From assembly GCF_038396765.1 (NCBI RefSeq), contig NZ_CP150096.1:3455001-3519000 (forward strand): a stretch of DNA of 64,000 bases, written 5' to 3'. The notes under the pieces were generated by a model, which had not been told where the DNA came from, did not search any database, and saw only the letters and a program-made list of their open reading frames with translations. Shown here one piece after another: positions 31,960 through 44,270 of this stretch (position 1 is its first letter; each line of letters opens with the position of its first letter). The position numbers were made by a program, and so were the translations under genes. The stretch is from Chitinophaga caseinilytica. GTDB lineage: Bacteria > Bacteroidota > Bacteroidia > Chitinophagales > Chitinophagaceae.

Positions 31960-32029
31960 ATGGAAACCGACGATTAACCCATTCAGTTACAACAACGTGT
32001 CCGATTCACCCACGCCATACCGACCAGAT

Positions 32030-32920
32030 ATGAAGAAGCACGACGGATTTCAGGGACAAAAAGCAGTGATCATTCCGCGGCACATCTACCAGCGTGCCTG
32101 CCGGGACCAGCCCGCCATTTCCGGGCTTTTTATCACCGATATCGGGTATTATCCCAATGCCCATTACCATTTCCGCGAACGGGCCGCCGGCGCGGAGCAA
32201 CACATCCTCATTTATTGCAAGGAAGGCCGCGGAAAAGTGCAGTTGGCCGATGCCGCGTATACCGTGGAGCCGGGCGAATGTTTCCTCATCCCCAGGGGCG
32301 TTCCACATGCCTACGCCGCCAACGAAGTGCAACCCTGGACGATTTACTGGCTCCATTTCGCCGGAAGCGCCGCCGATGCCCTCGTGGAAGGACTGCGGCA
32401 GGGCAACGCCCTCATCAAGAAATTCATCCACTTTTCCAATGAGCGCGAGGCGTTTTTCAACCAGCTGTACGACCGCCTGGAGCGGGGCTTCAGCACCGAT
32501 AACCTCCTGTTCGCCAACCTGCACCTGCCGGGCTTCCTGGCGGATTGTCTTTTCGAAGAAGTGCCGGCCGCCTACAGCGAAGAGTTTTCCGCGAACATGA
32601 TCAACACCGCGATCGACCATATGCAGAAACGATTGGCCGGAAAGTGCCGCCTGGCCGATCTGGCGGCTGTCCTCAACGTGTCCGTGTCCCATCTCTGTTA
32701 TCTATTCAAACAGAAAACCGGTTTTTCGCCTATCGAGTATTTCAATCACCTGAAGATCCAGCAGGCCTGTCAATACCTGCTGTTCACGGATTTGCGGGTG
32801 AATGAAGTAGGGGTGCGGCTGGGGATGGAAGATGCGTACTACTTTTCGCGGTTCTTTAAGCGGCAGATCGGGATGTCGCCGCAGGCGTACCGGAGCCGGC
32901 GGAAGAAGGAAGCGGGATAG
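32030..32920 (+). CDS. AraC family transcriptional regulator
   Basis: This 296-residue regulator has an N-terminal cupin-type ligand-binding domain (about 1-150, including YTVEPGECFLIPRGVPHAYA) and a C-terminal pair of helix-turn-helix motifs (RLADLAAVLNVSVSHLCYLF and VNEVGVRLGMEDAYYFSRFF) ending in MSPQAYRSR. The ATG at 32030 is preferred over a GTG at 31997. Such regulators of the AraC/XylS type sense a sugar and activate nearby genes. Its position directly after the SusC/SusD/DUF operon makes it a likely local activator and a candidate for binding the repeats at 24386 and perhaps 15430. Confidence 0.9.
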   Translation: MKKHDGFQGQKAVIIPRHIYQRACRDQPAISGLFITDIGYYPNAHYHFRERAAGAEQHILIYCKEGRGKVQLADAAYTVEPGECFLIPRGVPHAYAANEVQPWTIYWLHFAGSAADALVEGLRQGNALIKKFIHFSNEREAFFNQLYDRLERGFSTDNLLFANLHLPGFLADCLFEEVPAAYSEEFSANMINTAIDHMQKRLAGKCRLADLAAVLNVSVSHLCYLFKQKTGFSPIEYFNHLKIQQACQYLLFTDLRVNEVGVRLGMEDAYYFSRFFKRQIGMSPQAYRSRRKKEAG

Positions 32921-32940
32921 GGTGGATGCGGCGGGCAGGG

Positions 32941-33024
32941 TGATAAGGATCAGCTTTGCTGCGATTACGGTCATTTTCCATGCAGGGGAATTCAGTGAAC
33001 TTGTTAATGTCGGAAATAACATTG
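32941..33024 (+). promoter_or_regulatory. FNR/CRP-type palindrome upstream of the AI-2E family gene
   Basis: TGAT-AAGG-ATCA lies at 32941-32952. The best -7 candidate is TAACATTG (33017-33024), centred 74 bp downstream. That is about two helical turns further than at the other promoters of the island, so the site would lie near -82. Confidence 0.55.
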
Positions 33025-33042
33025 TTCACTTGAAATCACCAC

Positions 33043-34104
33043 ATGCAACCAGTCCGCAATACAGATAATCTGGCCAGGAGCCTGGTGCTCGTACTGGCTG
33101 GCGGGTCATTGCTTTATTTCGGAAAGCCGCTTTTCGTACCGCTGTTTATGGGTTTATTGGTAGCGATGATCATGTACCCGGTTTGTACAACCCTGGAGCG
33201 GTGGGGCGCTTCCAGGACGGTGGGGGTTACGGTTTGCCTCGTTATCGTCATCGCGCTGTTTGCAGCGCTGTTGGCGCTGCTTGTCTGGCAACTCCGATCG
33301 TTCCTGGGTGATTGGCCTATGCTGGCGGCTAAGCTGGAAGGATCGCTGACGGATGTAAAACAATGGCTGGCGTTGAACTTCCGGATCACGCTCGAGGTGC
33401 AGGATAACTGGCTGCACGACCAGGCGGGCCAGGTCATGGGGTTCATTGGCCCTGTGCTGAGGGGCACGGTCAATGTAACGGCGAATACGCTTTTTATGTT
33501 GTTTATGACGCCTGTTTTTGCCGCGCTGTTTTTGTTCCACCGACGGGTTTTTGTATTGTTCCTGGAGAAGATGGCGGGCGACCGTTACGCGCATAAACTG
33601 GAAACGATCCTGCGGCAGGTGATCCGGACATATTTTCAGTATGTCAAAGGCATGATTCTCGTGTACCTGGTCGTAGGTGTCCTCAATACCATCGGGCTAT
33701 ACCTTCTCGATGTGCCGCATGCCTTTCTCTTCGGGATGCTTACGGCCATTATGACCATCATTCCCTATTTCGGGATCATTGTGAGCGCATTGCTGCCAAT
33801 TTCAGCGGCGTGGACCGTCCATGGGTCCATTTGGTACCCAGTCGGGGTTATCGGGGTTTTCAGTTTTGTGCAATACCTGGAAGCCAACATCATCTTCCCG
33901 AAAATAGTAGCCGCGCAATTGAACGTGAGCACCTGGGCTACGCTGGTAGCTATTCTTGCCGGCGGGATCGTTTGGGGAGTTGCCGGTATGGTCCTGTTCA
34001 TCCCATTCGTGGCTATGGCCAAAATAGCGGCAGACCACCTGGATGAATGGGCGCATTGGCGGTTGTTGTTGGCCCGTGCAGCATCCGGAAAGGGGAGTGG
34101 ATGA
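33043..34104 (+). CDS. AI-2E family transporter (PF01594-type permease)
   Basis: This is a 353-residue integral membrane protein. Three membrane helices lie in the first 85 residues (LVLVLAGGSLLYF, PLFVPLFMGLLVAMIMYPV, VTVCLVIVIALFAALLALLV). A soluble insert follows (about 90-145), and five or so further helices include the family block YVKGMILVYLVVGVLNTIGL. The family includes TqsA (AI-2 export) and sodium/proton antiporters, so the name does not fix the substrate. It is the first gene of the FNR-box island and seems to be a single-gene unit. Confidence 0.88.
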   Translation: MQPVRNTDNLARSLVLVLAGGSLLYFGKPLFVPLFMGLLVAMIMYPVCTTLERWGASRTVGVTVCLVIVIALFAALLALLVWQLRSFLGDWPMLAAKLEGSLTDVKQWLALNFRITLEVQDNWLHDQAGQVMGFIGPVLRGTVNVTANTLFMLFMTPVFAALFLFHRRVFVLFLEKMAGDRYAHKLETILRQVIRTYFQYVKGMILVYLVVGVLNTIGLYLLDVPHAFLFGMLTAIMTIIPYFGIIVSALLPISAAWTVHGSIWYPVGVIGVFSFVQYLEANIIFPKIVAAQLNVSTWATLVAILAGGIVWGVAGMVLFIPFVAMAKIAADHLDEWAHWRLLLARAASGKGSG

Positions 34105-34166
34105 TATCGATCAGGCAACCGCCGTATTTGCGTCATTCTTTGTCGGGACAATCCTGGGTAATTTTC
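34102..34166 (+). promoter_or_regulatory. FNR/CRP-type promoter of hsp20
   Basis: TGAT-ATCG-ATCA (34102-34113) overlaps the stop codon of the AI-2E family gene. The -7-like box TAATTTTC (34159-34166) is centred 55 bp downstream. This places the activator site near -62, the class I position for FNR/CRP proteins. Confidence 0.65.
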
Positions 34167-34209
34167 AATCATGGAAATTTCATCTCATCACTTATAAATC
34201 TGAAGTATC

Positions 34210-34644
34210 ATGAAAACGCTTTCTTTACAACCCGACACGATGTTCCCGGCCCTGTGGGACGACTTCTTTTCCGGATGGCTCGATATGAACGGGAAGAAGA
34301 ATAAACCGTTTCTGACCGTTCCGGCGGTGAACATCAGTGAAGGCAAAGATGCATTCAAAATCGCCATGGCAGCGCCTGGCATGAAGAAGGAAGATTTCAG
34401 GATCGATGTATCGGAAGGGTTGCTGACCGTCAGTTCCCAAACGGGATCGAAGCATGAGGAGGAAAAGGATAACTACCGGAAACAGGAGTACAATTACAGC
34501 AGCTTCACGCGCGCTTTCGAAATCCCGGATTCGGTGATCGCCAGTAAAATCGAAGCGAAATATACCGATGGCGTCCTCGAGATCACATTACCGAAAAAGG
34601 AAGAAACAAAAACATCTCCCACCGTGAACGTAACGGTGAAGTAA
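34210..34644 (+). CDS. Hsp20/alpha-crystallin small heat-shock protein
   Basis: This is a 144-residue small heat-shock protein, an ATP-independent holdase that binds unfolding proteins in the cytoplasm. The alpha-crystallin domain spans about residues 38-144, with FKIAMAAPGMKKEDFRIDVS and the characteristic GVLEITLPKKEE near the end. The N-terminal arm is short (MFPALWDDFFSGWLDM). In this island it is driven by an FNR/CRP-type promoter rather than an obvious heat-shock signal, and a strong terminator follows the gene. Confidence 0.95.
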   Translation: MKTLSLQPDTMFPALWDDFFSGWLDMNGKKNKPFLTVPAVNISEGKDAFKIAMAAPGMKKEDFRIDVSEGLLTVSSQTGSKHEEEKDNYRKQEYNYSSFTRAFEIPDSVIASKIEAKYTDGVLEITLPKKEETKTSPTVNVTVK

Positions 34645-34664
34645 GGCAATTTGCTGCAACTGCT

Positions 34665-34692
34665 GCCCCGCCGGTCAGGCGGGGCTTTTTTT
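34665..34692. terminator. Terminator after hsp20, overlapping the nuclease 3' end
   Basis: GCCCCGCC (34665-34672) and GGCGGGGC (34678-34685) form the stem with loop GGTCA, followed by TTTTTTT. The last codons of the convergent nuclease gene (stop at 34675) lie inside the hairpin. Confidence 0.88.
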
Positions 34693-35552
34693 GTCTTTAT
34701 GTGGTTGATGGTGCTGCACTTTTGCGCAGAGTGTACTGGCCTCTTTCAATACCCTATCCGCTTTTCCGGGTGGAACGGCCACTTCGTTCAGGGCATCGGG
34801 CCGCCCGAGCAGATCACTGCAAAGCACGACCCCCAGGTGCAGCAACCTGGATTTTTCGTAATGACTGAGGGTGGTGAGGCAGGTCACCGGGTAAAGTTGC
34901 TGCTGGTCGATGACGTCGCGAAGGCCTTTGCCGGAAGGGTGGTCCCAGGACAGTAACTGCAATCCCACACAGTTGCTGTACTGGAGCGCGTCCGACGAAA
35001 AGCGGGAATTGGTAATGAGCCAACCCGACAGTTTGCCTGGGCTGGATTTTTCGAATGAGCGGGCGATGTCCTGGAACCGAGCATGTACGTAAAGTGCCAC
35101 CTTCACATCGCATTTGATGCCTGCCTGGTGGTACTTGCATTCGATGAAGTTTTTTTCTCCGGCCGTAGTGGCCATTACGTCAACTTCATGCCTGACGCAG
35201 TGGCCGGTGATGAACTGGTTGGTTTGTACGGTATAGCCCCTGCGGCGGAAGAGCTCCCCGATAAATTGTTCGAACGGGAAACCCGACGGCCCCAGTTCCA
35301 GGATGGCCCTTTTCAGATGGTAGCGCGCTGCGGCGGGGCGCATCCTGTCTTTCAGCATGCCGAAGGCCAGGTCATAGATCTCCCGCGTGGGAATGCCGGG
35401 GTAGAGCCTGGGCCGCAGGGAAGCGATGATCCCGTCTGCCGTATCCTCCGAAGCGCCGGAGCGGGTGAGCGACCGGCGCAGTTTTTTTCCGAGAATGCCG
35501 CCAGTCCCCCGTCCGATTTCCGGACGTACTGTATCGCTTGTTTTTCTTCCAT
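34675..35552 (-). CDS. ATP-cone plus Mrr-like PD-(D/E)XK nuclease, split by a -1 frameshift
   Basis: Two overlapping frames encode one protein of about 292 residues. The first, from the ATG at 35552, gives the ATP-cone start (MEEKQAIQYVRKSDGGLAAF, then SEK). After the A7 run at 35482-35488 the homology continues in the -1 frame with KKLRRSLTRSGASEDTADGI. The ATP-cone ends near residue 95. The rest is a restriction-endonuclease fold with GELFRRRGYTVQ and the catalytic pattern HEVDVMATTAGEKNFIECKY. In the zero frame the run reads GAA AAA AAC, an A AAA AAC slippery heptamer in the correct phase. An uninterrupted frame also exists from 35619 but starts with unrelated residues and loses the ATP-cone N-terminus. 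An FNR box and -7 box at the island's standard distances precede 35552, which supports that start. The function (DNA cleavage gated by nucleotide binding) is inferred. Confidence 0.72.
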
Positions 35553-35566
35553 ATGCAGCGTTTTTA

Positions 35567-35631
35567 CCAAAGTACGAAGTTGGCGGGTCACAGACGCTGA
35601 CGGCCGTACGCATCGCCATTGATCGTGATCA
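35567..35631. promoter_or_regulatory. FNR/CRP-type site between the nuclease and lipoprotein genes
   Basis: TGAT-CGTG-ATCA lies at 35620-35631. For the minus strand, TACTTTGG (35574-35567) lies 55 bp away centre to centre, the standard class I spacing of this island. For the plus strand the nearest good -7 candidate is TAACTTTA (35708-35715), 86 bp away, which would be about three helical turns further out. Confidence 0.62.
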
Positions 35632-35733
35632 GCCGGGCTGGCCCGGCGATGTATGAACGTCATCAAGACACTGTATTTACATCATTTACCCGGCTCCGGT
35701 ACTATGTTAACTTTAGGGTATAAACCACCTACC

Positions 35734-36759
35734 ATGGCGCTCCTTGCAACGATACGGTGCATCGTCCTCGCGGGAATATTGGGTTCCTGTACGGAACGTA
35801 CGGAAATGATACGGCAATTGGGCCGGGAACATATGGATACGGTCCCTGCGGGCATCCGCATCGCGCCGGATTCTCTGCCTCCGGATACTGCCGCCTGGCG
35901 TCAGGCCCTCCGGCATCTGGCGCACGGGGCCCCACTTACCTGGTGGGCTGCCGCCGAAGACGGGCCGCCGCTGCCGGGGGCTTTGTTGCCATATAAAAGG
36001 ATCGTAGCATATTACGGCAACCTGTACGCCCCCGCCATGGGAATACTGGGCGCCCTTCCGGAAGACGCGCTCATGGAAAAATTAGCCGGCGAAATGCGGC
36101 TATGGGAAGCTGCCGATACGATGATCTCCACGGTATCTGCCCTGCATTACATTGCCGTAACCGCCCAGCGAACACCGGGAAGGGACGGCATGTACCGCCT
36201 CCGGATGCCGCACACGGAAATCGACAGGGTCATCGATATGGCGCGCCGGCACCAGGCGATCGTTTTCCTCGATATTCAAACCGGGCACAGCGACGCGCTC
36301 ACGGAAACCAAAGCACTTGCCGGATATCTGGCCATGCCCGACGTGCACCTGGGCCTCGACCCGGAATACAATATGATCGGCGGACAAATCCCGTGCTCCA
36401 CCATCGGCACCATGGACGCGGCTACGATCAATGCCGTTTCCGGTTACCTGGCGGAATTGGTACGGGAAAACGGTTTGCCACCTAAAATCCTCGTCGTTCA
36501 CCGCTTCACCCAGGCGATGGTCACCAATGCCCAGTCGATCACCCGCCGGCCGGAAGTGCAGTTCGTGATGAATATGGACGGCTTCGGCTCACCTGCCAGG
36601 AAAAAGGATACCTACGGGGCATATATCGGAAAAAAGCCGCCGCAGTTTACGGGGTTCAAGTTATTCTACAAGATAGACCCCGCTACCGGCGGGCGCCTTA
36701 TGCTGCCTGCCGAGGTGTTGCTGCTGCAACCTTCCCCGGTTTATATCCAATATCAATAA
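35734..36759 (+). CDS. Uncharacterised lipoprotein, possible TIM-barrel fold
   Basis: I do not recognise a named family. The ATG at 35734 gives 341 residues and a lipobox (AGILGSC, C19). Earlier starts at 35704 and 35653 are possible but fit the -7 candidate at 35708 less well. The sequence alternates predicted strands and helices: KRIVAYYGNLYAP, ALHYIAVTAQ, QAIVFLDIQTGHSD, PDVHLGLDPEYNM, KILVVHRFTQAMV and VQFVMNMDGFGSP. Strands ending in D, H or E residues at regular intervals look like a (beta/alpha)8 barrel of glycoside-hydrolase type. It shares the FNR-type site at 35620 with the divergent nuclease gene, which suggests induction with the stress island. No enzymatic function is claimed. 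Confidence 0.6.
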   Translation: MALLATIRCIVLAGILGSCTERTEMIRQLGREHMDTVPAGIRIAPDSLPPDTAAWRQALRHLAHGAPLTWWAAAEDGPPLPGALLPYKRIVAYYGNLYAPAMGILGALPEDALMEKLAGEMRLWEAADTMISTVSALHYIAVTAQRTPGRDGMYRLRMPHTEIDRVIDMARRHQAIVFLDIQTGHSDALTETKALAGYLAMPDVHLGLDPEYNMIGGQIPCSTIGTMDAATINAVSGYLAELVRENGLPPKILVVHRFTQAMVTNAQSITRRPEVQFVMNMDGFGSPARKKDTYGAYIGKKPPQFTGFKLFYKIDPATGGRLMLPAEVLLLQPSPVYIQYQ

Positions 36760-36815
36760 CTAAAAATCAGTCATATGAGAAAGGCCGAATTGGGCTTTGA
36801 CGGCTCCTGAAACGA

Positions 36816-36879
36816 TGACCACGATCATCGCCGCCACGTCCGCCATCATTCTTCCACCAGGCCGGAAGGCCTAACTTTC
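36816..36879 (+). promoter_or_regulatory. FNR/CRP-type promoter of the Usp-flavodoxin operon
   Basis: TGAC-CACG-ATCA lies at 36816-36827 and TAACTTTC at 36872-36879. The centres are 54 bp apart, and the -7 box ends 15 bases before the ATG at 36895. This fits class I activation at about -62. Confidence 0.65.
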
Positions 36880-36894
36880 ATTAAAATACTCACC

Positions 36895-37725
36895 ATGAAA
36901 AAGATCCTTGCAACCGTAGACGCACTGCATTTCTCGGAACATGAGCTGAGAAGTTACAAATATATCGCTGACAAAGCCCGCGGCGCGCTTACCATTCTTT
37001 TCCTCGAAAACATCGCCGGTGAAGCCGTGCAATATGCGGCGCTGGAATCCGGTACGCTCGATTACCAGGCCATTTTCGCGGAAAGCATGAAGGAAAGGCG
37101 GGAAAAATCCATCGAGAACAAAAAACGCCTGCAGGAATATTACCGGGATAACGGGATGGACGTGACCGTACGCGAACTCCCCGGCGTGCCCATGGTGGAA
37201 GCGGTTGCGGAAAGCCGCTTCGCCGACCTCCTGCTCGTTCGGAACGATACTTCGTTTTCCATGCTCACCGATTCCAATCCCACGCAATTCGTGAAGGATA
37301 TGCTCGTGCAGGCGCAATGCCCGGTGATGGTGATCCCGGAAACGGTCCATTATTTCCGGGAGCTCATATTCTCCTATAACGGCACATTCTCTTCATCGTT
37401 CGCCATCCGCCAGTTCACACAACTGTTCGATACCCTGAGCGAAGTGCCCGTCAAAGTCATTTACATCGCAGAAAACGATGAGCGGAAAATCCCTTCCGGC
37501 AAACTCATCAAAGAATACCTCAACCATCATTACGAAGATGTCACGTACCAGTCGCTCGAAGGCAAACCCGCCGCAGAACTCCTTGCCGCCACCCTGCACA
37601 GCACCCATGGCGTCGTTACCCTGGGCGCATACGGCCGGAGCGCCACTTCCCGGTTCTTCCGCCACAGCGATGCCGAAGCGATCCTGCGGACGGCCAACAT
37701 TCCCGTATTCATTACTCATCCCTAA
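36895..37725 (+). CDS. Universal stress protein, tandem UspA domains
   Basis: This is a 276-residue protein with two UspA-like domains (about 1-147 and 150-276). The second ends in LGAYGRSATSRFFRHS, which keeps the G-x2-G part of the ATP-binding loop but has HS where G(S/T) is expected. The first lacks the loop, so nucleotide binding may be weak or absent. It is the first gene of a four-gene operon (spacing 12 bp, then two 4-bp overlaps). Usp proteins of this kind are induced by oxygen limitation or stasis in several bacteria, in line with the FNR/CRP-type site upstream. Confidence 0.92.
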   Translation: MKKILATVDALHFSEHELRSYKYIADKARGALTILFLENIAGEAVQYAALESGTLDYQAIFAESMKERREKSIENKKRLQEYYRDNGMDVTVRELPGVPMVEAVAESRFADLLLVRNDTSFSMLTDSNPTQFVKDMLVQAQCPVMVIPETVHYFRELIFSYNGTFSSSFAIRQFTQLFDTLSEVPVKVIYIAENDERKIPSGKLIKEYLNHHYEDVTYQSLEGKPAAELLAATLHSTHGVVTLGAYGRSATSRFFRHSDAEAILRTANIPVFITHP

Positions 37726-37737
37726 AATCCACATTGT

Positions 37738-38274
37738 ATGAAAGGGCTAGTCGTTTATAAGGGGCGGTATGGAGCAACGATGCAATACGGCATCTGGCTC
37801 GGTGCGGCATTGAATTATCCTGTCGTTAAATCGGATTTCGTGCGGCCGGAGCAGATCACCCAGGCGGATTGTATCCTGATCGGCACCAGCGTTTACATCG
37901 GACAGTTGCAGGTGAAAAAGTGGTTGCAGGCGAATGCCCCCTTCTTGGAAGGCAAGAAGCTCATCTTTTTCATCGTTGCCGGCGGTGTGCCCGACAACCT
38001 GGCCGAAGTAAAAACCTATGTCGAAAAATGTGTGCCGGCCTCGTTGCAGCCGGGTGCGCAATGCTTCTATCTGCCGGGCCGGTTGAATTTCGGCCTGTTG
38101 TCGCTGAAAGACAAAATATTGCTGCGGATGGGCGCCTGGCTCGCGGCCAGGAAAGGGAAGAAAATAACGGTTACGGATTATAACCACGTGGCCAGGGAGC
38201 ATATCGCTCCGGTGATCGAAGCCGCCCTGCTGATGGCTACAACATCACTCACCTCGCAAAACGCCGCCATATGA
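37738..38274 (+). CDS. Flavodoxin domain protein (HemG-like)
   Basis: This 178-residue protein starts with the flavodoxin phosphate-binding loop (LVVYKGRYGATMQYGIWL). It also has LIGTSVYIGQLQ and the FMN-side loop FFIVAGGVPDN. The layout resembles the menaquinone-dependent protoporphyrinogen oxidase HemG group and other short flavodoxins, so it is probably an FMN-binding electron-transfer protein. Haem synthesis under low oxygen is one possible role, but a general redox partner is equally possible. It is co-transcribed with Usp and overlaps the next gene by 4 bp. Confidence 0.8.
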   Translation: MKGLVVYKGRYGATMQYGIWLGAALNYPVVKSDFVRPEQITQADCILIGTSVYIGQLQVKKWLQANAPFLEGKKLIFFIVAGGVPDNLAEVKTYVEKCVPASLQPGAQCFYLPGRLNFGLLSLKDKILLRMGAWLAARKGKKITVTDYNHVAREHIAPVIEAALLMATTSLTSQNAAI

Positions 38275-38672
38275 AAATGCTCATCACGGAAGAATTCCTT
38301 GTCCGCTACATCCAGGACGAATTTCATATCTGTTACCCGCACCTGAAGCTGGAATTCTTCAGGCAGCCGCACGGCCTCCACGAAGGCAGCCACCGGGTGG
38401 ATAAAGTGCATCCGGATACACATATCGATGAAATCCGGGACTTCCATAGTGCCGCGTGGATCGATTTCGGCGGTTATATCACTGCCGCAGACCTGGAAGA
38501 CCAGTTTACGCATTTGCTGGGCCTGAGCGCACAGGTTTTCCGGAAATCTGGAAATGTCTGGCTCGAAACCACGGAAACTGACGACCTGACGCTGGGCGAG
38601 CTTGAAGAAAGAAGCAGCTATGAGGCTACCCGGGCAGGCATTCCTGATAACGATCTAAACGAACAAACATGA
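38271..38672 (+). CDS. Conserved hypothetical protein in the Usp operon
   Basis: This is a 133-residue acidic soluble protein with no signal peptide or membrane helix. Visible segments include LEFFRQPHGLHEGSHRVDKV and FHSAAWIDFGGYITAADLED, and several histidines are clustered between residues 34 and 59. It overlaps both neighbours by 4 bp (ATGA), which indicates translational coupling and argues that it is a real gene. I do not recognise its family. Confidence 0.75.
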   Translation: MKMLITEEFLVRYIQDEFHICYPHLKLEFFRQPHGLHEGSHRVDKVHPDTHIDEIRDFHSAAWIDFGGYITAADLEDQFTHLLGLSAQVFRKSGNVWLETTETDDLTLGELEERSSYEATRAGIPDNDLNEQT

Positions 38673-39271
38673 AGATGATAATGATTGTTATTGCCGTTGC
38701 CGTGTTGTTGCCGGCATGTTATTCCACGCAGCTTACCCGGATACAACAGCCGGCGGCGGCATCGCCCGTGGCCTGCAAAAAAATACTTGTGCTGGGCATG
38801 ATGCCCGACAGCGTATTGCGGCAGCGGATGGAATCGCATGTTGCGGGAGATCTGACAGATGCAGGCTTTACAGCGGTAACGTCGTTCCAGGGGTTCGATG
38901 CGTTCGAGTTCCTGCAGTCGGAAGACAAAGTGCCGACACAACAATTCGCTGATCGGGGGATCGATGCCGTGCTGACCATTTCCCTGATCAATAAAACGAC
39001 GGAAGGCGTCTTCCTTCCGGTTAGCCTCTATCACCTGCTGACCGACCAATACGCATCGGAATACTACTGGATGCTGGCGCCCGAGCTGCAAAGGGAAGAA
39101 ACCCGGTACGCCTGGGAAAGTGGTCTGTACGACGTGGCGGATGGCCTGCGCAAGTTTGCCGTGCAGTCCGTTTCGTTCGCGCCTTCCTCGCAGGAGCGCA
39201 TGGCGCATGAATACGGCAAGGTGCTGACGCGGGAACTGGTCCGCCGAAAAGCGATCTCCCGGCCCAGGTGA
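38669..39271 (+). CDS. Hypothetical lipoprotein, last gene of the Usp operon
   Basis: This is a 200-residue protein with a lipoprotein signal (AVLLPAC, C17). The mature part opens with CKKILVLGMMPDSVLRQRME, followed by a segment like the periplasmic alpha/beta domain of DUF4136-type lipoproteins (ADRGIDAVLTISLINKTTEG). It ends with a basic tail. Its start overlaps the previous gene by 4 bp, and a strong terminator overlaps its stop codon. The role is unknown; an envelope function is inferred from the lipobox. Confidence 0.78.
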   Translation: MKMIMIVIAVAVLLPACYSTQLTRIQQPAAASPVACKKILVLGMMPDSVLRQRMESHVAGDLTDAGFTAVTSFQGFDAFEFLQSEDKVPTQQFADRGIDAVLTISLINKTTEGVFLPVSLYHLLTDQYASEYYWMLAPELQREETRYAWESGLYDVADGLRKFAVQSVSFAPSSQERMAHEYGKVLTRELVRRKAISRPR

Positions 39272-39285
39272 GCCGGGAGTTTTTA
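39256..39285 (+). terminator. Terminator of the Usp-flavodoxin operon
   Basis: CTCCCGGC (39256-39263) pairs with GCCGGGAG (39272-39279), followed by TTTTT. The stop codon of the lipoprotein gene lies in the loop. Confidence 0.88.
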
Positions 39286-39286
39286 T

Positions 39287-40126
39287 TTAGTGGTGACTGA
39301 TGAACAATGCCTTCGATACGAATTTCGCGAGCGGTTCGGCATGGCTGGCAGACACGAACGCAGACCAGCCGCTTCTTCCATAAGCACCCATCACGATCAG
39401 CAGTTTATCCTTTTCCAGCACATATTCCAGCAACGCGATCCTGCTGTCGTCTCCCGCATTCACGAATTTTACTTCGCGGAAATTTCCCCGCAGCCAATCG
39501 CCCATCAGTTGTAATTCTTTTTTGCTGACCCAGGTTTCGCCATGGGCAGTGAGCACCGTCAGCCTTCTGTCGGTCAGCCGGGGGAAAAGGGCGCAAAACT
39601 GTTTGATGGCGAATACGGAAGAAGGGCTGCCATCATAAGCGAACACGATTTCTTCGAGCCCGTCGAACCTTTCGGGGACGAGGATGACGGGGCATTCCGA
39701 CTGTGAAAGGATATTGCGCGCCATCGACGGCGAATGACCGGCATTGGATACCGACAATCCCAGCGCGGGATCTATCAGCAGCAGGTCCGCATACCGGCAT
39801 TCCGTCACCACCGTATCGGCGATGTGATCGCTGATCAGCAGGGCCTGGGCGTTGAAACCGACTTCGTCGCAGGTATTCCTGAACACCGAAAGGTTCCTTT
39901 GAATACATTCATCCCTGAGTATTTCCATGGGCGTGTCCCGGTTGCAATCCCCGCCGCTGCAGATCATTTCTTCGCGCAGCGCCTTTTCCGAAGCGGAATC
40001 GTGCGCGGCCAGTTCCACAAACAGTCCGGTCAGCGGCGCATGCAGCAACTGGCAAACGAAACCAGCGAAATCCAGCGGATGGCGGTCGATCTTGTAGGCA
40101 TCCGCCAGGTAGAGTACCTTTTTCAT
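39287..40126 (-). CDS. Universal stress protein, tandem UspA domains
   Basis: This is a 279-residue two-domain Usp related to the one at 36895. The start is set at the ATG at 40126 (MKKVLYLADAYKIDRHPLDF), because the frame upstream to 40237 has no Usp similarity and runs through the regulatory site. The C-terminal domain keeps GAYGRSGWSAFVSAS, a partial ATP-binding loop. The gene is alone on the minus strand. Its activator site is only 33 bp from the -7 box, unlike the 54-56 bp seen elsewhere, so it may respond more strongly or differently to the same regulator. Confidence 0.9.
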   Translation of the reverse strand: MKKVLYLADAYKIDRHPLDFAGFVCQLLHAPLTGLFVELAAHDSASEKALREEMICSGGDCNRDTPMEILRDECIQRNLSVFRNTCDEVGFNAQALLISDHIADTVVTECRYADLLLIDPALGLSVSNAGHSPSMARNILSQSECPVILVPERFDGLEEIVFAYDGSPSSVFAIKQFCALFPRLTDRRLTVLTAHGETWVSKKELQLMGDWLRGNFREVKFVNAGDDSRIALLEYVLEKDKLLIVMGAYGRSGWSAFVSASHAEPLAKFVSKALFISHH

Positions 40127-40141
40127 GGTGGAAAGTTTCGG

Positions 40142-40184
40142 GAAAGTTACCGGCATCCGCATCGCCAGACAATGATGCCCGTCA
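40142..40184 (-). promoter_or_regulatory. FNR/CRP-type promoter of the second Usp gene, class II spacing
   Basis: TGAT-GCCC-GTCA (plus-strand reading, 40173-40184) and, on the minus strand, TAACTTTC (40149-40142) are centred 33 bp apart. This puts the site near -41, about two helical turns closer than in the class I promoters. A CTTGCCGC/GCGGCAAG hairpin without a T run lies just beyond (40211-40238). Confidence 0.6.
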
Positions 40185-40240
40185 CGGGAAATGATGATGG
40201 AAAGCTGCTCCTTGCCGCACGATATCACGGGCGGCAAGGT

Positions 40241-41002
40241 TCACTCGCCCAAAACGATGAATTTCCGGAATATTTTTTTCCGCTTTGCCTGGAATTTGAG
40301 GAGAGCTGTTTGCTGGAGGTGGGCAATCGCTTCGGTAATGTCGTCCGTCACCAGGAACAGCTCCAGGTCGGCAGGTGCGATCATGTGTTCTTCCAGCATC
40401 CGGTCGAGCATGGTTTTGACCGGCTCCCAATAATGGCTGCCGAAGAGTACCACCGGGAAATCTAGGATTTTTTTGGTCTGTATCAGCGTCAATGCTTCGA
40501 AAAGCTCGTCCAGCGTGCCGATCCCGCCGGGCATGATGACGTATCCGTAAGAGTATTTGAACATGAGCACCTTCCTGACGAAGAAGTACCGGGAAGTGAA
40601 ATATTTGTTCAGGTAGGGGTTTGGTTTTTGTTCCATCGGCAGCTGGATATTGCATCCCAGGGCAACGCCGCCGCCTTCTCGCGCTCCGCGGCTGGCGGCT
40701 TCCATGATGCCCGGCCCGCCGCCGGTCATGACGGCAAATCCGAGCCCGGCGATGCCGGCGCCCATTTTTACCGCAGCGTCGTAGTGCGGGGTGCCGGGCC
40801 CTACGCGGGCGGAGCCGAATACGGCGATGCAGGGCGGGGAAAAGTGGAAAATGCGGAACCCGCGGACGAACTCCCACAGAATATCCAGCAGGAAGAACAG
40901 CTCGCGGATGCGCGACCGCGGCCCTTCCAGCCAGTACCGCTCTTTTTTGATATCCGCCTCCCGCTTCGCCGGATCAGGCTGGCCGTTGTGTTGTGCATTC
41001 AT
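40241..41002 (-). CDS. LOG family protein (TIGR00730-type Rossmann fold)
   Basis: This is a 253-residue nucleotide-processing enzyme with both LOG signatures: GGGPGIMEAASRGAREGG and MPGGIGTLDELFEALT. Characterised members release the base from nucleoside monophosphates (cytokinin riboside 5'-monophosphate phosphoribohydrolase, or AMP/GMP nucleosidase-like activity). Bacterial members outside plant symbionts are often stress-linked. The roughly 30-residue N-terminal extension is common in Bacteroidota homologues. A canonical FNR-type site lies 73.5 bp upstream of the ATG, next to the 3' end of the regulator gene. Confidence 0.9.
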   Translation of the reverse strand: MNAQHNGQPDPAKREADIKKERYWLEGPRSRIRELFFLLDILWEFVRGFRIFHFSPPCIAVFGSARVGPGTPHYDAAVKMGAGIAGLGFAVMTGGGPGIMEAASRGAREGGGVALGCNIQLPMEQKPNPYLNKYFTSRYFFVRKVLMFKYSYGYVIMPGGIGTLDELFEALTLIQTKKILDFPVVLFGSHYWEPVKTMLDRMLEEHMIAPADLELFLVTDDITEAIAHLQQTALLKFQAKRKKIFRKFIVLGE

Positions 41003-41016
41003 GATAACGGTTTCCG

Positions 41017-41082
41017 GAAAATTAGTTGATCAACGATCTTTGGCCAATATCGGCCATCATGGAAGTGATTGACGGATATCAA
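41017..41082 (-). promoter_or_regulatory. FNR/CRP-type promoter of the LOG gene
   Basis: TTGAC-GGAT-ATCAA (41069-41082) is the best match in the window to the FNR/DNR consensus. The minus-strand -7 box TAATTTTC (41024-41017) is centred 55 bp away, identical in sequence and distance to the hsp20 promoter. Confidence 0.72.
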
Positions 41083-41086
41083 TGGT

Positions 41087-42145
41087 TCAGTTCACCATTC
41101 TTTCCAGTTTACGGATATCCTTGATGTAGATCGCGCCGTTTTGGATGTCGATACTGCCTTCGTCCCGGAAATCGCCCAGGGTGCGGATCAGCGATTCTTT
41201 GGCCACCCCGGCGATGGCGGCGATATTGTCCCGCCCGATGTCGAGCCCGGGATTGGTAACACCCTGGCTGCTGCACCTGCGGAAAAGGTACAGGAGCGCA
41301 TCTGCCACGCGCTTGCGCAGTGAATTGTAGGCCATGCCCAGCAAATGCTGCTGGTTTTCGGACAGGTTGGTGGTGAGGAGCTGAATGAATTTGCGGACAA
41401 CGTCCATATTGCTATAGGCCAGCGATTCGAAATCGCTGCGCGGGATGAGCGCCAGTTCAGTGGGCTCGATGGCTTCCGCCTCATCGTCGTACACCTTGTT
41501 TTCCAGGAGGGATTTGTAGCCGAGGAATTCTCCGGGCCCGTAAACACGTGTAATGATCTCTTTGCCTTCTTCGTTATGGAGGCTCGTTTTGACGCGGCCT
41601 TTGTTGATATAATACAAATAGGCCGGATGGTTGCCGGCCGAATAGATCAGTTGTTTCTTTTTGTAGGTGTTGCAATTCCGGCCTTCCCGCAATTCATCGA
41701 GCAGGGAAGCGCCGTTGGCCACGTTCAGCAATGATCGCAGGCCGGTCATGTCTGGCGTGAACGAGGAACGGAGCTTTTTGCTTTTGCTTAGCCGGACTTC
41801 CACCGCGTGCAGCAATTCCAGCGAATCGAACGGCTTCACGAGGTAATCGTCTGCGCCCAGTTCCATGCCCTTACGTATCTCCGATTTGCCGGACAGGGCA
41901 CTGAGGAAAATGAAAGGCGTGCTCCAGATTTCCTCGCGTTTTTGCAGCATATGCAAAACGCCGTAACCGTCCAGCAACGGCATGCAGATGTCGCAGATAA
42001 TAAGATCGGGTTTCTTTTCGGTTGCAACCCTGACACCTTCCAGGCCGTCTTTTGCATTCAGCACATCGTAGTTGTCCAATTCGAGGATCTCCGTAATATT
42101 GGCCAATACGTCGGGGCTGTCTTCGATGACAAGAATTGTAGGCAT
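41087..42145 (-). CDS. Receiver-CRP/FNR fusion transcriptional regulator
   Basis: This 352-residue regulator joins a response-regulator receiver domain (about 1-125; acidic pair E8-D9, phospho-acceptor D52 in ICDICMPLLDGYG, K104 in DDYLVKPF) to a cNMP-binding beta-roll (about 150-260, INKGRVKTSLHNEEGKE) and a CRP-type helix-turn-helix (about 300-340). The recognition helix AKESLIRTLGDF keeps the Glu and Arg that contact the TGA core in FNR and CRP. Only two cysteines lie outside the receiver, so an FNR-type 4Fe-4S cluster is unlikely. It is the natural candidate for the TGAY-N4-RTCA sites around it. No kinase gene is adjacent. Its own promoter lacks such a site. Confidence 0.9.
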   Translation of the reverse strand: MPTILVIEDSPDVLANITEILELDNYDVLNAKDGLEGVRVATEKKPDLIICDICMPLLDGYGVLHMLQKREEIWSTPFIFLSALSGKSEIRKGMELGADDYLVKPFDSLELLHAVEVRLSKSKKLRSSFTPDMTGLRSLLNVANGASLLDELREGRNCNTYKKKQLIYSAGNHPAYLYYINKGRVKTSLHNEEGKEIITRVYGPGEFLGYKSLLENKVYDDEAEAIEPTELALIPRSDFESLAYSNMDVVRKFIQLLTTNLSENQQHLLGMAYNSLRKRVADALLYLFRRCSSQGVTNPGLDIGRDNIAAIAGVAKESLIRTLGDFRDEGSIDIQNGAIYIKDIRKLERMVN

Positions 42146-42185
42146 GGGGCAAAACTTTTGTCAGAATAACATACGATCAACAATA

Positions 42186-42218
42186 TAAATCTACCGAATT
42201 AACAATTAAACTGACAAA
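42186..42218 (-). promoter_or_regulatory. Housekeeping-type promoter of the receiver-CRP regulator
   Basis: On the minus strand TTTG (42218-42215) and TAGATTTA (42193-42186) are separated by 21 bp, close to the Bacteroidota consensus. No TGAY-N4-RTCA palindrome is present in 42146-42243, so the regulator appears to be made independently of its presumed target sites. Confidence 0.45.
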
Positions 42219-42243
42219 GAGTTCTGCCCATCATGTATTGGAA

Positions 42244-42714
42244 CTACCCATGCGATGTTAAGGCAGATCGTTTCCTGTTGATTTTGAACAGGATGACCAG
42301 GCATGCGGCGGACAAAATGACCGGAGCCGGAAAAGCGGCCCCGGCGCCGAAGGGGGCGATGGCCCAGAAAAAGACCAGCGCGCAAAACAACGCTGCCATC
42401 CGGAGGCTCCCGGATCCGAACAATCCCAGCCCGATCAGTATCTGCGCCAGAGAGATAGATATGACTATCACTTGCATATGTACCCGGAATGATTCATGGA
42501 TCGTTCTCACATACCATTCGTACACCGCCACCGCTTCCAGGTCCAGGTACGTTTCCGGCCATGCAATAAGCACGACGATATTGATGAATGCAGTAAGGAA
42601 AAATACGAGCCCGATCGCTTTGGCGGCCTGATCTGGCCGCCGGAAGGCAAATATGAGGATCAGCAGGCATATCCCGTTGATCACGAAAAACGCGGGTGAT
42701 AATATATTTGTCAT
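42244..42714 (-). CDS. Small integral membrane protein, four to five helices
   Basis: This is a 156-residue hydrophobic protein with predicted helices at about residues 4-24, 32-52, 78-99, 104-123 and 127-145. A soluble loop (ETYLDLEAVAVYEWYVRTIH) lies between the second and third. The size and layout recall DoxX-like or DUF-type membrane proteins, but no diagnostic motif was seen. It shares a bidirectional FNR-type site with the small gene at 42868 and lies upstream of the regulator on the same strand, so it probably belongs to the regulon. A basic tail (KINRKRSALTSHG) suggests a cytoplasmic C-terminus. Confidence 0.75.
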   Translation of the reverse strand: MTNILSPAFFVINGICLLILIFAFRRPDQAAKAIGLVFFLTAFINIVVLIAWPETYLDLEAVAVYEWYVRTIHESFRVHMQVIVISISLAQILIGLGLFGSGSLRMAALFCALVFFWAIAPFGAGAAFPAPVILSAACLVILFKINRKRSALTSHG

Positions 42715-42730
42715 AACGAAGGATTTATTG

Positions 42731-42849
42731 AAAAGCTACCTCAAATCCCCGTCCCGGCCGATGATCCGGCAACGGCGGGGTGTATGATTTCTGTCAGTCC
42801 GGCCGCGGCCTGCCGTCATTGATAAGGCAGCCTGAAAAAACTAGCTTTA
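42731..42849. promoter_or_regulatory. Bidirectional FNR/CRP-type promoter region
   Basis: One palindrome, TGAT-TTCT-GTCA (42785-42796), lies midway between two divergent genes. The minus-strand box TAGCTTTT (42738-42731) and the plus-strand box TAGCTTTA (42842-42849) are centred 56 and 55 bp from it. Both genes can therefore be served in class I geometry by a single site. Confidence 0.7.
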
Positions 42850-42867
42850 ATTTCTAAACTTATTGTT

Positions 42868-43056
42868 ATGGCACACGCAATTTCTCATGCACCCGCTTAC
42901 CCGAGACCAGTTGGAAGAACGAACGTACTTTCCTCGCAGGAGCTTTCCTGGGGCATTGTTTTGCTGTTGGCATGGCTGGGATGGCCCATAGCACGGGATT
43001 TTCTCGCCTGGGTGCTGCTGAAGGCCTACGACCTTTACATTACCTACGTTCATTGA
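42868..43056 (+). CDS. Small single-pass membrane protein
   Basis: This is a 62-residue protein with a hydrophilic N-terminal third (HAISHAPAYPRPVGRTNVLS) and one or two closely spaced hydrophobic stretches (WGIVLLLAWLGWPIARDFLA, then WVLLKAYDLYITYV). I do not recognise a family. Evidence that it is real comes from the class I FNR-type promoter upstream, an ATG at the expected distance from the -7 box and the short 21-bp gap to the next gene. It could be a small subunit or regulator of a membrane complex induced with the island. Confidence 0.65.
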   Translation: MAHAISHAPAYPRPVGRTNVLSSQELSWGIVLLLAWLGWPIARDFLAWVLLKAYDLYITYVH

Positions 43057-43077
43057 TGGCCCGTAAAACATCGTCTT

Positions 43078-43311
43078 ATGAAAACGGAAAATTATACCGT
43101 CAGCATTCAGTTCGACGGCAAGCAATGGGACGTGCCCGTCCGGGTACTTTCCGGCGGCCTGGGCAGGAAAATAACAGTGGTGCTGGAAGGAATGGAGATT
43201 TGCTACGAGCGGGATGAGCACGACGGGCTCCGGGCCGTCAATCACCTGGAAGATTTCAACCCGGAGCTGCTGTACCAGATAGGTAAGAGCTTACAGGAAC
43301 AATGTATCTGA
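43078..43311 (+). CDS. Small conserved hypothetical protein
   Basis: This is a 77-residue soluble protein, MKTENYTVSIQFDGKQWDVP at the start, apparently a compact beta-rich fold with a helical C-terminus (NPELLYQIGKSLQEQCI). There is no signal peptide or cysteine pair. It lies 21 bp after the small membrane protein and 15 bp before the PfkB gene, so the three probably form an operon. Function unknown. Confidence 0.65.
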   Translation: MKTENYTVSIQFDGKQWDVPVRVLSGGLGRKITVVLEGMEICYERDEHDGLRAVNHLEDFNPELLYQIGKSLQEQCI

Positions 43312-43326
43312 TCAATACCCGAAGAT

Positions 43327-44270
43327 ATGTACCCGATCATAACCGTGACGCTAAATCCGGCCGTGGATGTCAGCACCTCCGTACAATCGCTGCAGCCGGA
43401 AAAGAAACTTCGCTGCGCCGCGCCCCGTACGGAGCCCGGAGGCGGCGGTATTAACGTGGCCCGAGTGCTGCACAGGTTCGGTGAAAAAGTGTTGCCGGTG
43501 TACTTTGCCGGCGGTTGCAACGGCGGCCTGCTAACGGCGCAGCTCACGTCTGCAGGAATGGCGGTGGCGCCGGTCGGGATGCTGGCCGAAACACGCGAGA
43601 ACCTGCATGTGTCCGACATTTCCAACGGCCGTCAGTATCGCTTCGTTATGCCCGGGCCTTCCGTTCGCATGCGGAGAACATCGCCATGTTGAACAAACTG
43701 GCGGAAGTGATGCCCGGGGCGCAATACGTTGTGGTCAGCGGTAGCCTGCCGAAAGGTATGGGGCCCGACTTTATGGAAAAACTCGTAGCCCTGGCCGATA
43801 TTCACGATTGCCTCGTGATCGCGGACCTCAGCGGCGACGGGCTACGGCAGGCTATGTTGGCCGGCGTTTACCTGGTAAAGCCCAACCTCGGGGAGCTGGC
43901 GGCGTTGGCCGACCGAAAAGAGCTGAACGAGCGCGGGGCCGTCGAAGCGGCCAAAAGGATCATTGCGGCGGGAGGGGCTGCCGTGGTCGTTATTTCGATG
44001 GGAGCGGCGGGGGCGATTTTGGTAACCGGCGACCTCGAAGAACGGATCCCGGCCCCGGTCGTCAAGCCGGAAAGTACGGTGGGAGCGGGAGATAGCATGG
44101 TGGCGGGGATCGTTTACGGGTTGATGAACGGGTCGGATATTTCGGCCGCCGCCAGGTACGGCGTTGCCTGTGGAACGGCGGCAACATTGGCGAAGGGGAC
44201 AGGGCTCTGCCAGAAAACCGATGCCGACAGGCTGTTCCGGCAGATCGTTCCTGGAAACGGACAGTCGTAG
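43327..44270 (+). pseudogene. PfkB-family 1-/6-phosphofructokinase, frameshifted
   Basis: The first frame (43327 to a stop at about 43690) encodes the N-terminal half of a PfkB sugar kinase, including ITVTLNPAVDVST and the substrate loop EPGGGGINVAR, up to YRFVMPGP. From about 43659 the homology continues in the -1 frame (SHAENIAMLNKLAEVMPGAQ, VVVSGSLPKGMGPDF) through the catalytic anion-hole motif STVGAGDSMVAGIVYGL to the stop at 44270. Restoring one base gives a normal length of about 314 residues. The lesion lies within 43654-43661 (GGGCCTTC), which is not a recognised slippery site. A sequencing deletion or a recent mutation is more likely than programmed recoding. PfkB kinases accompany Hsp20 and Usp genes in dormancy regulons. 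Confidence 0.72.

Follow-up and report, generated by a model that had tools for sequence, protein, structure and literature searches.

Tandem FNR-type operators in a 22-bp register and a candidate receiver-CRP reader in Chitinophaga caseinilytica and other Bacteroidia

The FNR, ANR and FixK regulons are built on TTGAT-N4-ATCAA sites. Here we analysed a 64,000-bp stretch of Chitinophaga caseinilytica (contig NZ_CP150096.1, positions 3,455,001 to 3,519,000; hereafter the window), in which similar palindromes, TGAYNNNNRTCA, lie in a cluster of genes for an AI-2E transporter, Hsp20, an Mrr_cat nuclease, two universal stress proteins (Usp), a flavodoxin, a LOG protein, a regulator that fuses a receiver domain to a CRP-type protein (receiver-CRP) and a split PfkB-like protein. 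The locus resembles the FNR, ANR and FixK regulons in the half-site core, in the recognition Glu and Arg and in the kinds of target (cbb3 oxidase, hemN, Usp). It differs from them in that two operators lie 22 bp apart as a rule in front of a Bacteroidetes −7 box, and in that the candidate reader carries a receiver domain but lacks an iron-sulphur (Fe-S) cysteine cluster. The half-site, the targets and the fold are FNR/FixK-like and of a kind already known; the 22-bp tandem as a rule, its class-wide spread and the proposed exchange of the reader are new to us. Judged from the sequence, it is likely that these are activator-dependent promoters with two operators, that the receiver-CRP fusion, its paralogues or both are the most likely activator, and that the genes form a low-oxygen survival regulon.

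The rhizobial FixL-FixJ-FixK cascade is similar in its PAS kinase (FixL is the best solved match of the kinases described below), its CRP/FNR-type output and its fixNOGS-type targets. Here, however, the receiver and the FixK-like part are one protein, so that there is no separate FixJ step, and the oxygen-contact Arg is mostly replaced in the kinases. The mycobacterial DosR dormancy regulon also places Hsp20, Usp and PfkB genes jointly under a two-component system, but DosR has a LuxR-type DNA-binding domain and an unrelated operator. To our knowledge, oxygen-responsive regulation has been far less studied in Bacteroidia than in Proteobacteria. Excerpts of a study of Myxococcus xanthus (PMC11841059) describe two-component control of an oxygen-utilisation regulon by NmpRSTU through paired binding sites and also treat universal stress proteins; in contrast to the FNR-type tandem here, that system has an NtrC-like regulator, sigma-54 promoters and GCGCA-N5-TGCGC sites with a preferred spacing of 14–15 bp. 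For E. coli Crp, class I and class II activator centres are given as −61.5 and −41.5 in an excerpt of PMC5957442. Compared with those class I and class II Crp/Fnr promoters, the predicted operator centres here fall similarly near −62 and −40, but both positions carry a site within one promoter, in a 22-bp register. Neither a receiver-CRP regulator of Bacteroidetes nor a 22-bp tandem FNR promoter was found among the titles and abstract openings listed in searches of the open-licence literature.

Tandem operators in a 22-bp register

In what follows, TGAYNNNNRTCA denotes the exact palindrome and TAnnTTT the −7 box, and the gap is counted from the end of the palindrome to the box. A previous sequence-only reading of the window had placed palindromes in seven intergenic spaces (32941, 34102, 35620, 36816, 40173, 41070 and 42785), all of which were located there, and had assigned them to the class I position at about −62. 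The predicted operator centre is indeed at about −62, but this description is incomplete, as a second operator lies as a rule 22 bp nearer the start. The sites noted earlier are one arm of a tandem operator, with TGAYNNNNRTCA at about −62 and a second copy at about −40. The gaps to strict boxes were 45 bp for Hsp20, 44 for Usp1, 45 for LOG, 46 for the 42714 gene, 45 for the 42868 gene and 23 for Usp2. A spacing of 54–56 bp between the centres of palindrome and box had been reported for six start sites; five have strict boxes, at 53.5–55.5 bp, and the sixth, that of the nuclease, has TACTTTG at gap 45, outside strict TAnnTTT. The single case reported at 33 bp is Usp2 (40173; 32.5 bp between centres), and it turned out to be a tandem promoter whose perfect copy is the proximal one. 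At an eighth start site, that of the AI-2E transporter (32941), only a weak GAACTTG was present, at gap 44. The operator-to-box distance is constant within 1–2 bp, and the proximal right half, RTCATY, lies exactly 21 bp before the box; in Usp2 it is the right half of the palindrome itself. The second copies in the window are degenerate, with 6 of 8 positions each at offset 22 for Hsp20, 42868, LOG and the nuclease.

The geometry was measured near the receiver-CRP homologues of other genomes, in 40 stretches, some of them from close relatives, so that the pairs are not all independent. The palindrome-to-box gaps peaked at 23 (27 cases) and 45 (42 cases) over a background mean of 1.03 per gap (maximum 7), and a reversed-box control gave 0 at both gaps. 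When promoters in these stretches were selected by the distal copy only, a second palindrome appeared that the selection had not required (T86 R A83 Y N4 R T93 C86 A86); the proximal copy at +22 agreed in 6.64 of 8 positions (background 2.59), and the converse selection gave 6.52. When perfect palindromes up to 100 bp apart were paired, with no box required, 22 bp accounted for 30 pairs and every other distance for 3 or fewer. Twenty stretches outside the order, which were chosen by matches to the promoter profile R1 described below and therefore agree partly by construction, contained 19 pairs at 22 bp and 2 at others. A weaker third peak at gap 67, 22 bp further upstream (10 against about 1), suggests triple operators in some promoters. 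Elsewhere in this genome (5910272–5910337; L096 10273–10338, minus strand), two perfect palindromes spaced by 21 bp form a tandem promoter that aims at the 3' end of a receiver-CRP paralogue, where there is no obvious gene; it perhaps serves an antisense or small RNA.

The window contains nine exact palindromes, against 2.96 ± 1.64 in shuffles (largest 7). Seven of these fall within 32000–43500 (11.5 kb), where the shuffle mean is 0.62 (maximum 4), and six combinations of palindrome and box at a gap of 22–24 or 43–47 occur there, against a mean of 0.004 (maximum 1; 1000 dinucleotide shuffles). Genome-wide (6,517,700 bp, one contig) there are 491 palindromes, or one per 13.3 kb, and 20 combinations at gap 43–47, of which 5 are in the window cluster; seven 20-kb stretches elsewhere in the genome contained no combination at gaps 21–25 or 42–48. 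The comparison with shuffled and unrelated DNA that had been proposed with the regulon thus gave no equal density in either. A reversed-pattern control (81 against 491, genome-wide) was not used because the reversed pattern was judged unmatched for coding DNA. The remaining two window palindromes (9138–9149 and 25227–25238) translate, by eye, as NGVILITTK and NGVILVTTK, a stretch that presumably belongs to SusC-like proteins. We take these two to be a coding protein motif, which can yield false FNR-type sites in scans of Bacteroidetes.

The same layout was also looked for in related genomes, and it was found at syntenic Chitinophaga loci and in the 40 stretches of relatives. At three syntenic loci (L154–L156) compared with the window, that is, in four genomes, the six palindromes tested were present in 4/4, and the differences between genomes fell in the inner four bases. 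A strict box at an equal gap was found in 4/4 for Usp1, Usp2, LOG and 42868, in 2/4 for Hsp20 and 42714, and in 0/4 for the nuclease. The promoters of the window are as follows.

32941–33003, plus strand: possible tandem promoter of the AI-2E transporter gene (33043); distal palindrome 32941–32952, proximal GTCATT 32970–32975 (7 of 8 operator positions, offset 21), weak box GAACTTG 32997–33003; all three parts are also present in L154, and profile R1 missed it
34102–34165, plus strand: hsp20 tandem promoter; distal palindrome 34102–34113, proximal GTCATT 34132–34137, box TAATTTT 34159–34165
35568–35631, minus strand: nuclease tandem promoter; distal palindrome 35631–35620, proximal GTCAGC 35601–35596, box TACTTTG 35574–35568
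35651–35714, plus strand: promoter absent from the sequence-only reading, before the probable true start of the 35653–36759 gene (R1 match 35653–35715); degenerate distal operator GTATGAACGTCA 35651–35662 (6/8), proximal operator GTATTTACATCA 35673–35684, proximal right half ATCATT 35681–35686, box TAACTTT 35708–35714
36816–36878, plus strand: usp1 tandem promoter; distal palindrome 36816–36827, proximal ATCATT 36845–36850, box TAACTTT 36872–36878
40143–40206, minus strand: usp2 promoter; perfect proximal palindrome 40184–40173, degenerate distal site (6/8) 22 bp upstream of it, box TAACTTT 40149–40143
41018–41081, minus strand: promoter of the LOG-family gene; distal palindrome 41081–41070, proximal GATATT 41051–41046 (6/8 positions at offset 22), box TAATTTT 41024–41018
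42732–42797, minus strand: promoter of the 42714 gene and perhaps also of the regulator gene behind it; distal palindrome 42796–42785 (shared), proximal ATCATC 42765–42760, box TAGCTTT 42738–42732
42784–42850, plus strand: tandem promoter of the 42868 gene set; distal palindrome 42785–42796 (shared), proximal GTCATT 42815–42820, box TAGCTTT 42842–42848

Targets and spread of the promoters

Profile R1 was made from 37 promoters of other genomes, with the window genome excluded; 16 of 53 non-redundant promoters had been dropped by eye, mostly for a poorer tandem fit or for overlapping another. At E<1 it matched this 6.5-Mb genome 20 times, including 7 times within window positions 34101–42850; the LOG and 32941 sites are not among these 20. 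The LOG promoter had no R1 match in this genome at E up to 10 and was matched in L155 and L156. Outside the cluster, R1 matched in this genome in front of ccoNO, cydA (E 0.34) and genes for a cbb3 subunit III-like protein, a P-type ATPase similar to heavy-metal pumps and an acetyl-CoA hydrolase/transferase, among others, and in front of a Usp gene beside a receiver-CRP paralogue; the oxidase cluster also contains FixG and hemN. The proposal of an FNR/CRP-type regulon with fixed promoter geometry was borne out in that relatives keep the layout and promoters of this type also stand before cbb3 and bd oxidase genes, although the regulon is not restricted to the cluster and its best candidate regulator is neither a classical FNR nor a CRP.

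From 192 R1 matches in the window, the own-genome stretches and the relatives' stretches, 98 were taken (the stronger ones that reach the box, without L154–L156). A downstream open reading frame (ORF) was present in 87 of the 98; named mostly by eye, these encode Usp (17), Hsp20 (7), PAS kinases (5), CcoNO (2) and PfkB (2), together with one unassigned protein in 10 cases, another in 6, and further proteins. A small protein of about 125–140 residues (L136:8770, L118:7303–7683 and relatives) stands behind R1 matches in 10 loci, and the single member scanned had no Pfam match.

Among 149 genomes of the order, an R1 match (E≤0.01) was found in 85 and a receiver-CRP protein in 83; both occur in 62, the protein only in 21, the promoters only in 23 and neither in 43 (odds ratio 5.5; p 1.2e-6, which is nominal because the genomes are related). 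The idea that the promoters depend strictly on a receiver-CRP gene was not supported, as 23 of the 85 promoter-bearing genomes lack the fusion. Class-wide, R1 matched 104 genomes of the 198 sampled, including 99 from outside the order; the rough E-values predict about 2. Downstream of matches outside the order are FixS/CcoS (one of three look-alikes scanned), CcoN, Usp and, by eye, an FNR-like gene.

Candidate readers and proposed mechanism

The proximity counts that follow use the R1 matches listed, without the weak ones. Of the 101 listed from genomes unused for R1, 39 have a receiver-CRP gene no more than 20 kb away (nominal binomial 1.6e-40). The phospho-Asp is present in 46/46 receiver-CRP proteins and the Lys in 45/46, and the window protein matches PF00072 at 92 bits; with the phospho-Asp, acid pair and Lys of a receiver, the fusion is a two-component response regulator by its residues. 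Its recognition helix carries Glu and Arg, which are DNA-recognition residues, in 46/46 each, and together with the half-site TGAY this is recognition of the FNR/FixK type. The window fusion sequence lacks the four-cysteine Fe-S motif and its CRP half is preceded by a receiver, which sets it apart from FNR. It also differs from CRP, of which the Glu and Arg of the cAMP pocket are hallmarks: in alignment with Mycobacterium tuberculosis CRP (3d0s), the place of the Glu is Tyr in 41/46 and that of the Arg is Tyr in 44/46, with an Arg one residue further in 3/46. The FixK model NF050806 scored 69.5 bits against a cut-off of 300, which makes the fusion a relative and not a member. Among named matches of the window protein, the best are from Chitinophaga rhizosphaerae (98%), followed by two further Chitinophaga genomes (90%).

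A PAS kinase directly adjoins the receiver-CRP gene in 34/46, and the best-scoring solved match of the kinase PAS domain is FixL. In the FixL PAS domain, a His is the heme ligand and an Arg contacts oxygen. Of the 34 kinases, 32 could be aligned, and 24 of these have a His at the place of the heme ligand. Two kinases next to receiver-CRP genes in other families of the order (L139, L141) show 47–50% identity to the FixL PAS domain and have both the heme His and the Arg.

Stand-alone FNR-like proteins were searched for with an intact query at a threshold of at least 165 bits, which was set after the scores were known (the next lower was 160.5). They were found in 20/23 promoter-bearing genomes without the fusion, in 6/17 genomes with neither and in 3/53 with the fusion; in a second sample with another query, 14/18 further fusion genomes, 7 of them from the window's genus, have an FNR-like protein of at least 165 bits. 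In genomes without the fusion, an FNR-like gene is present within 5 kb of 8 of the 26 matches listed (5.6e-13), in 7/14 genomes. The N-terminal four-cysteine cluster is intact by strict columns in 11/20 proteins from genomes without the fusion versus 2/19 with it (p 0.006). In the printed sequences read by eye, which allows for a subfamily with the third cysteine two residues later, the counts are 18/20 versus 4/19. The fusion-bearing sample is biased in both counts because the degenerate copy of this genome itself served as the query that retrieved it. Where both proteins occur, the third cysteine is replaced by Ser, Ala, Val, Phe or Lys and the fourth by Ser, Phe, Gly or His, and the loss of several different cysteines points to repeated loss. 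This genome's own stand-alone protein (1190183–1190797) has Ser at the third cysteine.

From the sequences, we read the FNR-type low-oxygen promoters as having been taken over by a FixL/FixK-like two-component system. The balance appears even for a broader joint proposition, namely that 22-bp tandem FNR-type operators are a class-wide promoter type of Bacteroidia for low-oxygen genes, whose reader, once a direct Fe-S sensor, was exchanged for a two-component one, and that lineages with the PAS kinase and receiver-CRP lost the ancestral four-cysteine FNR or its cluster cysteines while keeping operators and targets.

The tandem geometry, the conservation, the target genes and the association with two types of regulator were computed directly, and from them we infer the binder, activation, phosphorylation, oxygen as the signal and the transcription starts as follows. 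A homodimeric activator of the CRP/FNR fold would bind TGAYNNNNRTCA about 62 bp upstream, and a second dimer would bind as a rule 22 bp, or two helical turns, nearer, at about −40. The proximal right half would replace the −33 element and the distal dimer would make upstream contacts, so that RNA polymerase is recruited to the Bacteroidetes TAnnTTT box; either operator copy may be the strong one. The FixL-related PAS histidine kinase, signalling falling oxygen, would phosphorylate the receiver of the fusion, so that one protein would combine the steps that FixJ and FixK carry out in the rhizobial cascade. Gene content suggests that the regulon is a low-oxygen survival set of cbb3 and bd oxidases, Usp and Hsp20, with the PAS-kinase and receiver-CRP genes included in relatives. 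The regulator perhaps drives its own gene, since the 42714-gene promoter precedes a gene 98 bp upstream of the regulator gene. Relatives that lack the fusion probably have this operator read by a stand-alone FNR-type protein with four cysteines. If this scheme is true, it would offer a ready operator code to predict low-oxygen regulons in a large share of Bacteroidia (104/198 sampled), a natural setting in which to study two CRP-family dimers that abut at −40 and −62, and an exchange of sensor under a conserved operator that is testable in pairs of related species.

Several observations weigh against this scheme. The proximal copies in the window are mostly half-sites, with 4–7 of 8 positions at offsets 21–23; the offset is 21 for Usp1 (6/8) and AI-2E (7/8) and 23 for 42714 (4/8), and the LOG proximal site reads GATATT. 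Profile R1 leans to the tandem pattern because its training promoters were picked by eye. The association is imperfect, with 21/149 genomes having the fusion without an R1 match and 23/149 the reverse. The receiver-CRP genes of the window and of L154–L156 have no adjoining kinase, and in the 32 alignable kinases the oxygen-contact Arg of FixL is replaced by Leu or Met in 21 and the His is missing at its aligned place in 8. HTH_Crp_2 matches 13 times in this genome, 10 times above the cut-off, and some of these proteins have similar recognition helices, which leaves room for another binder. The same 13 matches would suit a binder in this genome that is the stand-alone FNR-like protein (1190183–1190797) or another CRP-family protein, with the receiver-CRP gene only a target. 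Its helix, TESAIR, is close to the KESLIR of the fusion, and the FNR-like genes near promoters in half of the genomes without the fusion (7/14, among the matches listed) point the same way. On the other hand, this protein has Ser for its third cysteine, its gene lies more than 2 Mb from the cluster with no R1 match nearby, and in other genomes the promoter matches cluster beside the receiver-CRP gene; we consider this assignment rather unlikely.

The tandem itself could be questioned if each promoter had a single operator and RTCATY 21 bp before the box were a −33 element read by a sigma factor. The window consistently keeps only the proximal right half, at the position of a −33 element, and among 33 TAnnTTTG boxes that lack a perfect palindrome, taken from the regulon stretches, there is a weak excess of C (45%), A (42%) and T (55%) where RTCATT has its C, A and last T, so that part of RTCATT could be a −33 element. 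However, the left half TRAY is also conserved though it was not required, exact 22-bp pairs are the only clearly enriched distance, the perfect copy of Usp2 is the proximal palindrome, and RTCAT was found at 0/31 TAnnTTT boxes, a small sample, in own-genome stretches off the cluster (L099–L113). It is quite unlikely that the second operator is a sigma element. Only slightly better are the prospects for sites that repress, or for a signal of general energy or stationary stress rather than oxygen: a site at −40 can overlap the polymerase, and Usp and Hsp20 respond to many stresses, but cbb3 and bd oxidase genes are typical low-oxygen targets. Against repression, the operators lie at places that correspond to −61.5 and −41.5, which the excerpt of PMC5957442 gives for activation by E. 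coli Crp at class I and class II promoters. Mere chance is scarcely conceivable as the origin of the palindromes. The palindrome alone is common, with 491 copies in the genome, and two of the nine window copies resemble coding motifs, but chance is contradicted by the shuffles, the random stretches, synteny and the relatives; for the cluster sites, the first three of these ruled out both chance and coding explanations.

Genes of the cluster

The genes that accompany the promoters of the window are as follows.

34210–34644, plus strand: Hsp20 gene (PF00011)
34675–35619, minus strand: ORF of the Mrr_cat nuclease, with its frame broken near the N terminus
36895–37725, plus strand: universal stress protein 1 (PF00582)
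37738–38274: gene with a flavodoxin domain (PF12724), after usp1
39287–40126, minus strand: universal stress protein 2 (Pfam scan over 39287–40123; start taken from the sequence)
40241–41002, minus strand: LOG-family (Lysine_decarbox) gene (PF03641)
41087–42145, minus strand: receiver-CRP fusion regulator (Response_reg, cNMP_binding, HTH_Crp_2), candidate regulator of these promoters
42244–42714, minus strand: small hydrophobic protein of unassigned function, 98 bp upstream of the regulator gene (no Pfam family)
43327–44270, plus strand: split pfkB-like gene, downstream of the 42868 promoter

Relatives of the 42714-gene protein sit behind R1 matches in three other loci. The nuclease (34675–35619, minus strand) and the PfkB-like gene (43327–44270, plus strand) are split here and in L155 and have an intact frame in L154 and L156; their frame breaks are either sequencing errors or real decay. 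By eye, look-alikes of a 133-residue protein encoded at 38271–38672 of the window lie directly 3' of R1 matches in L118, L124 and L135, from the same genus, and in L281, from outside the order.

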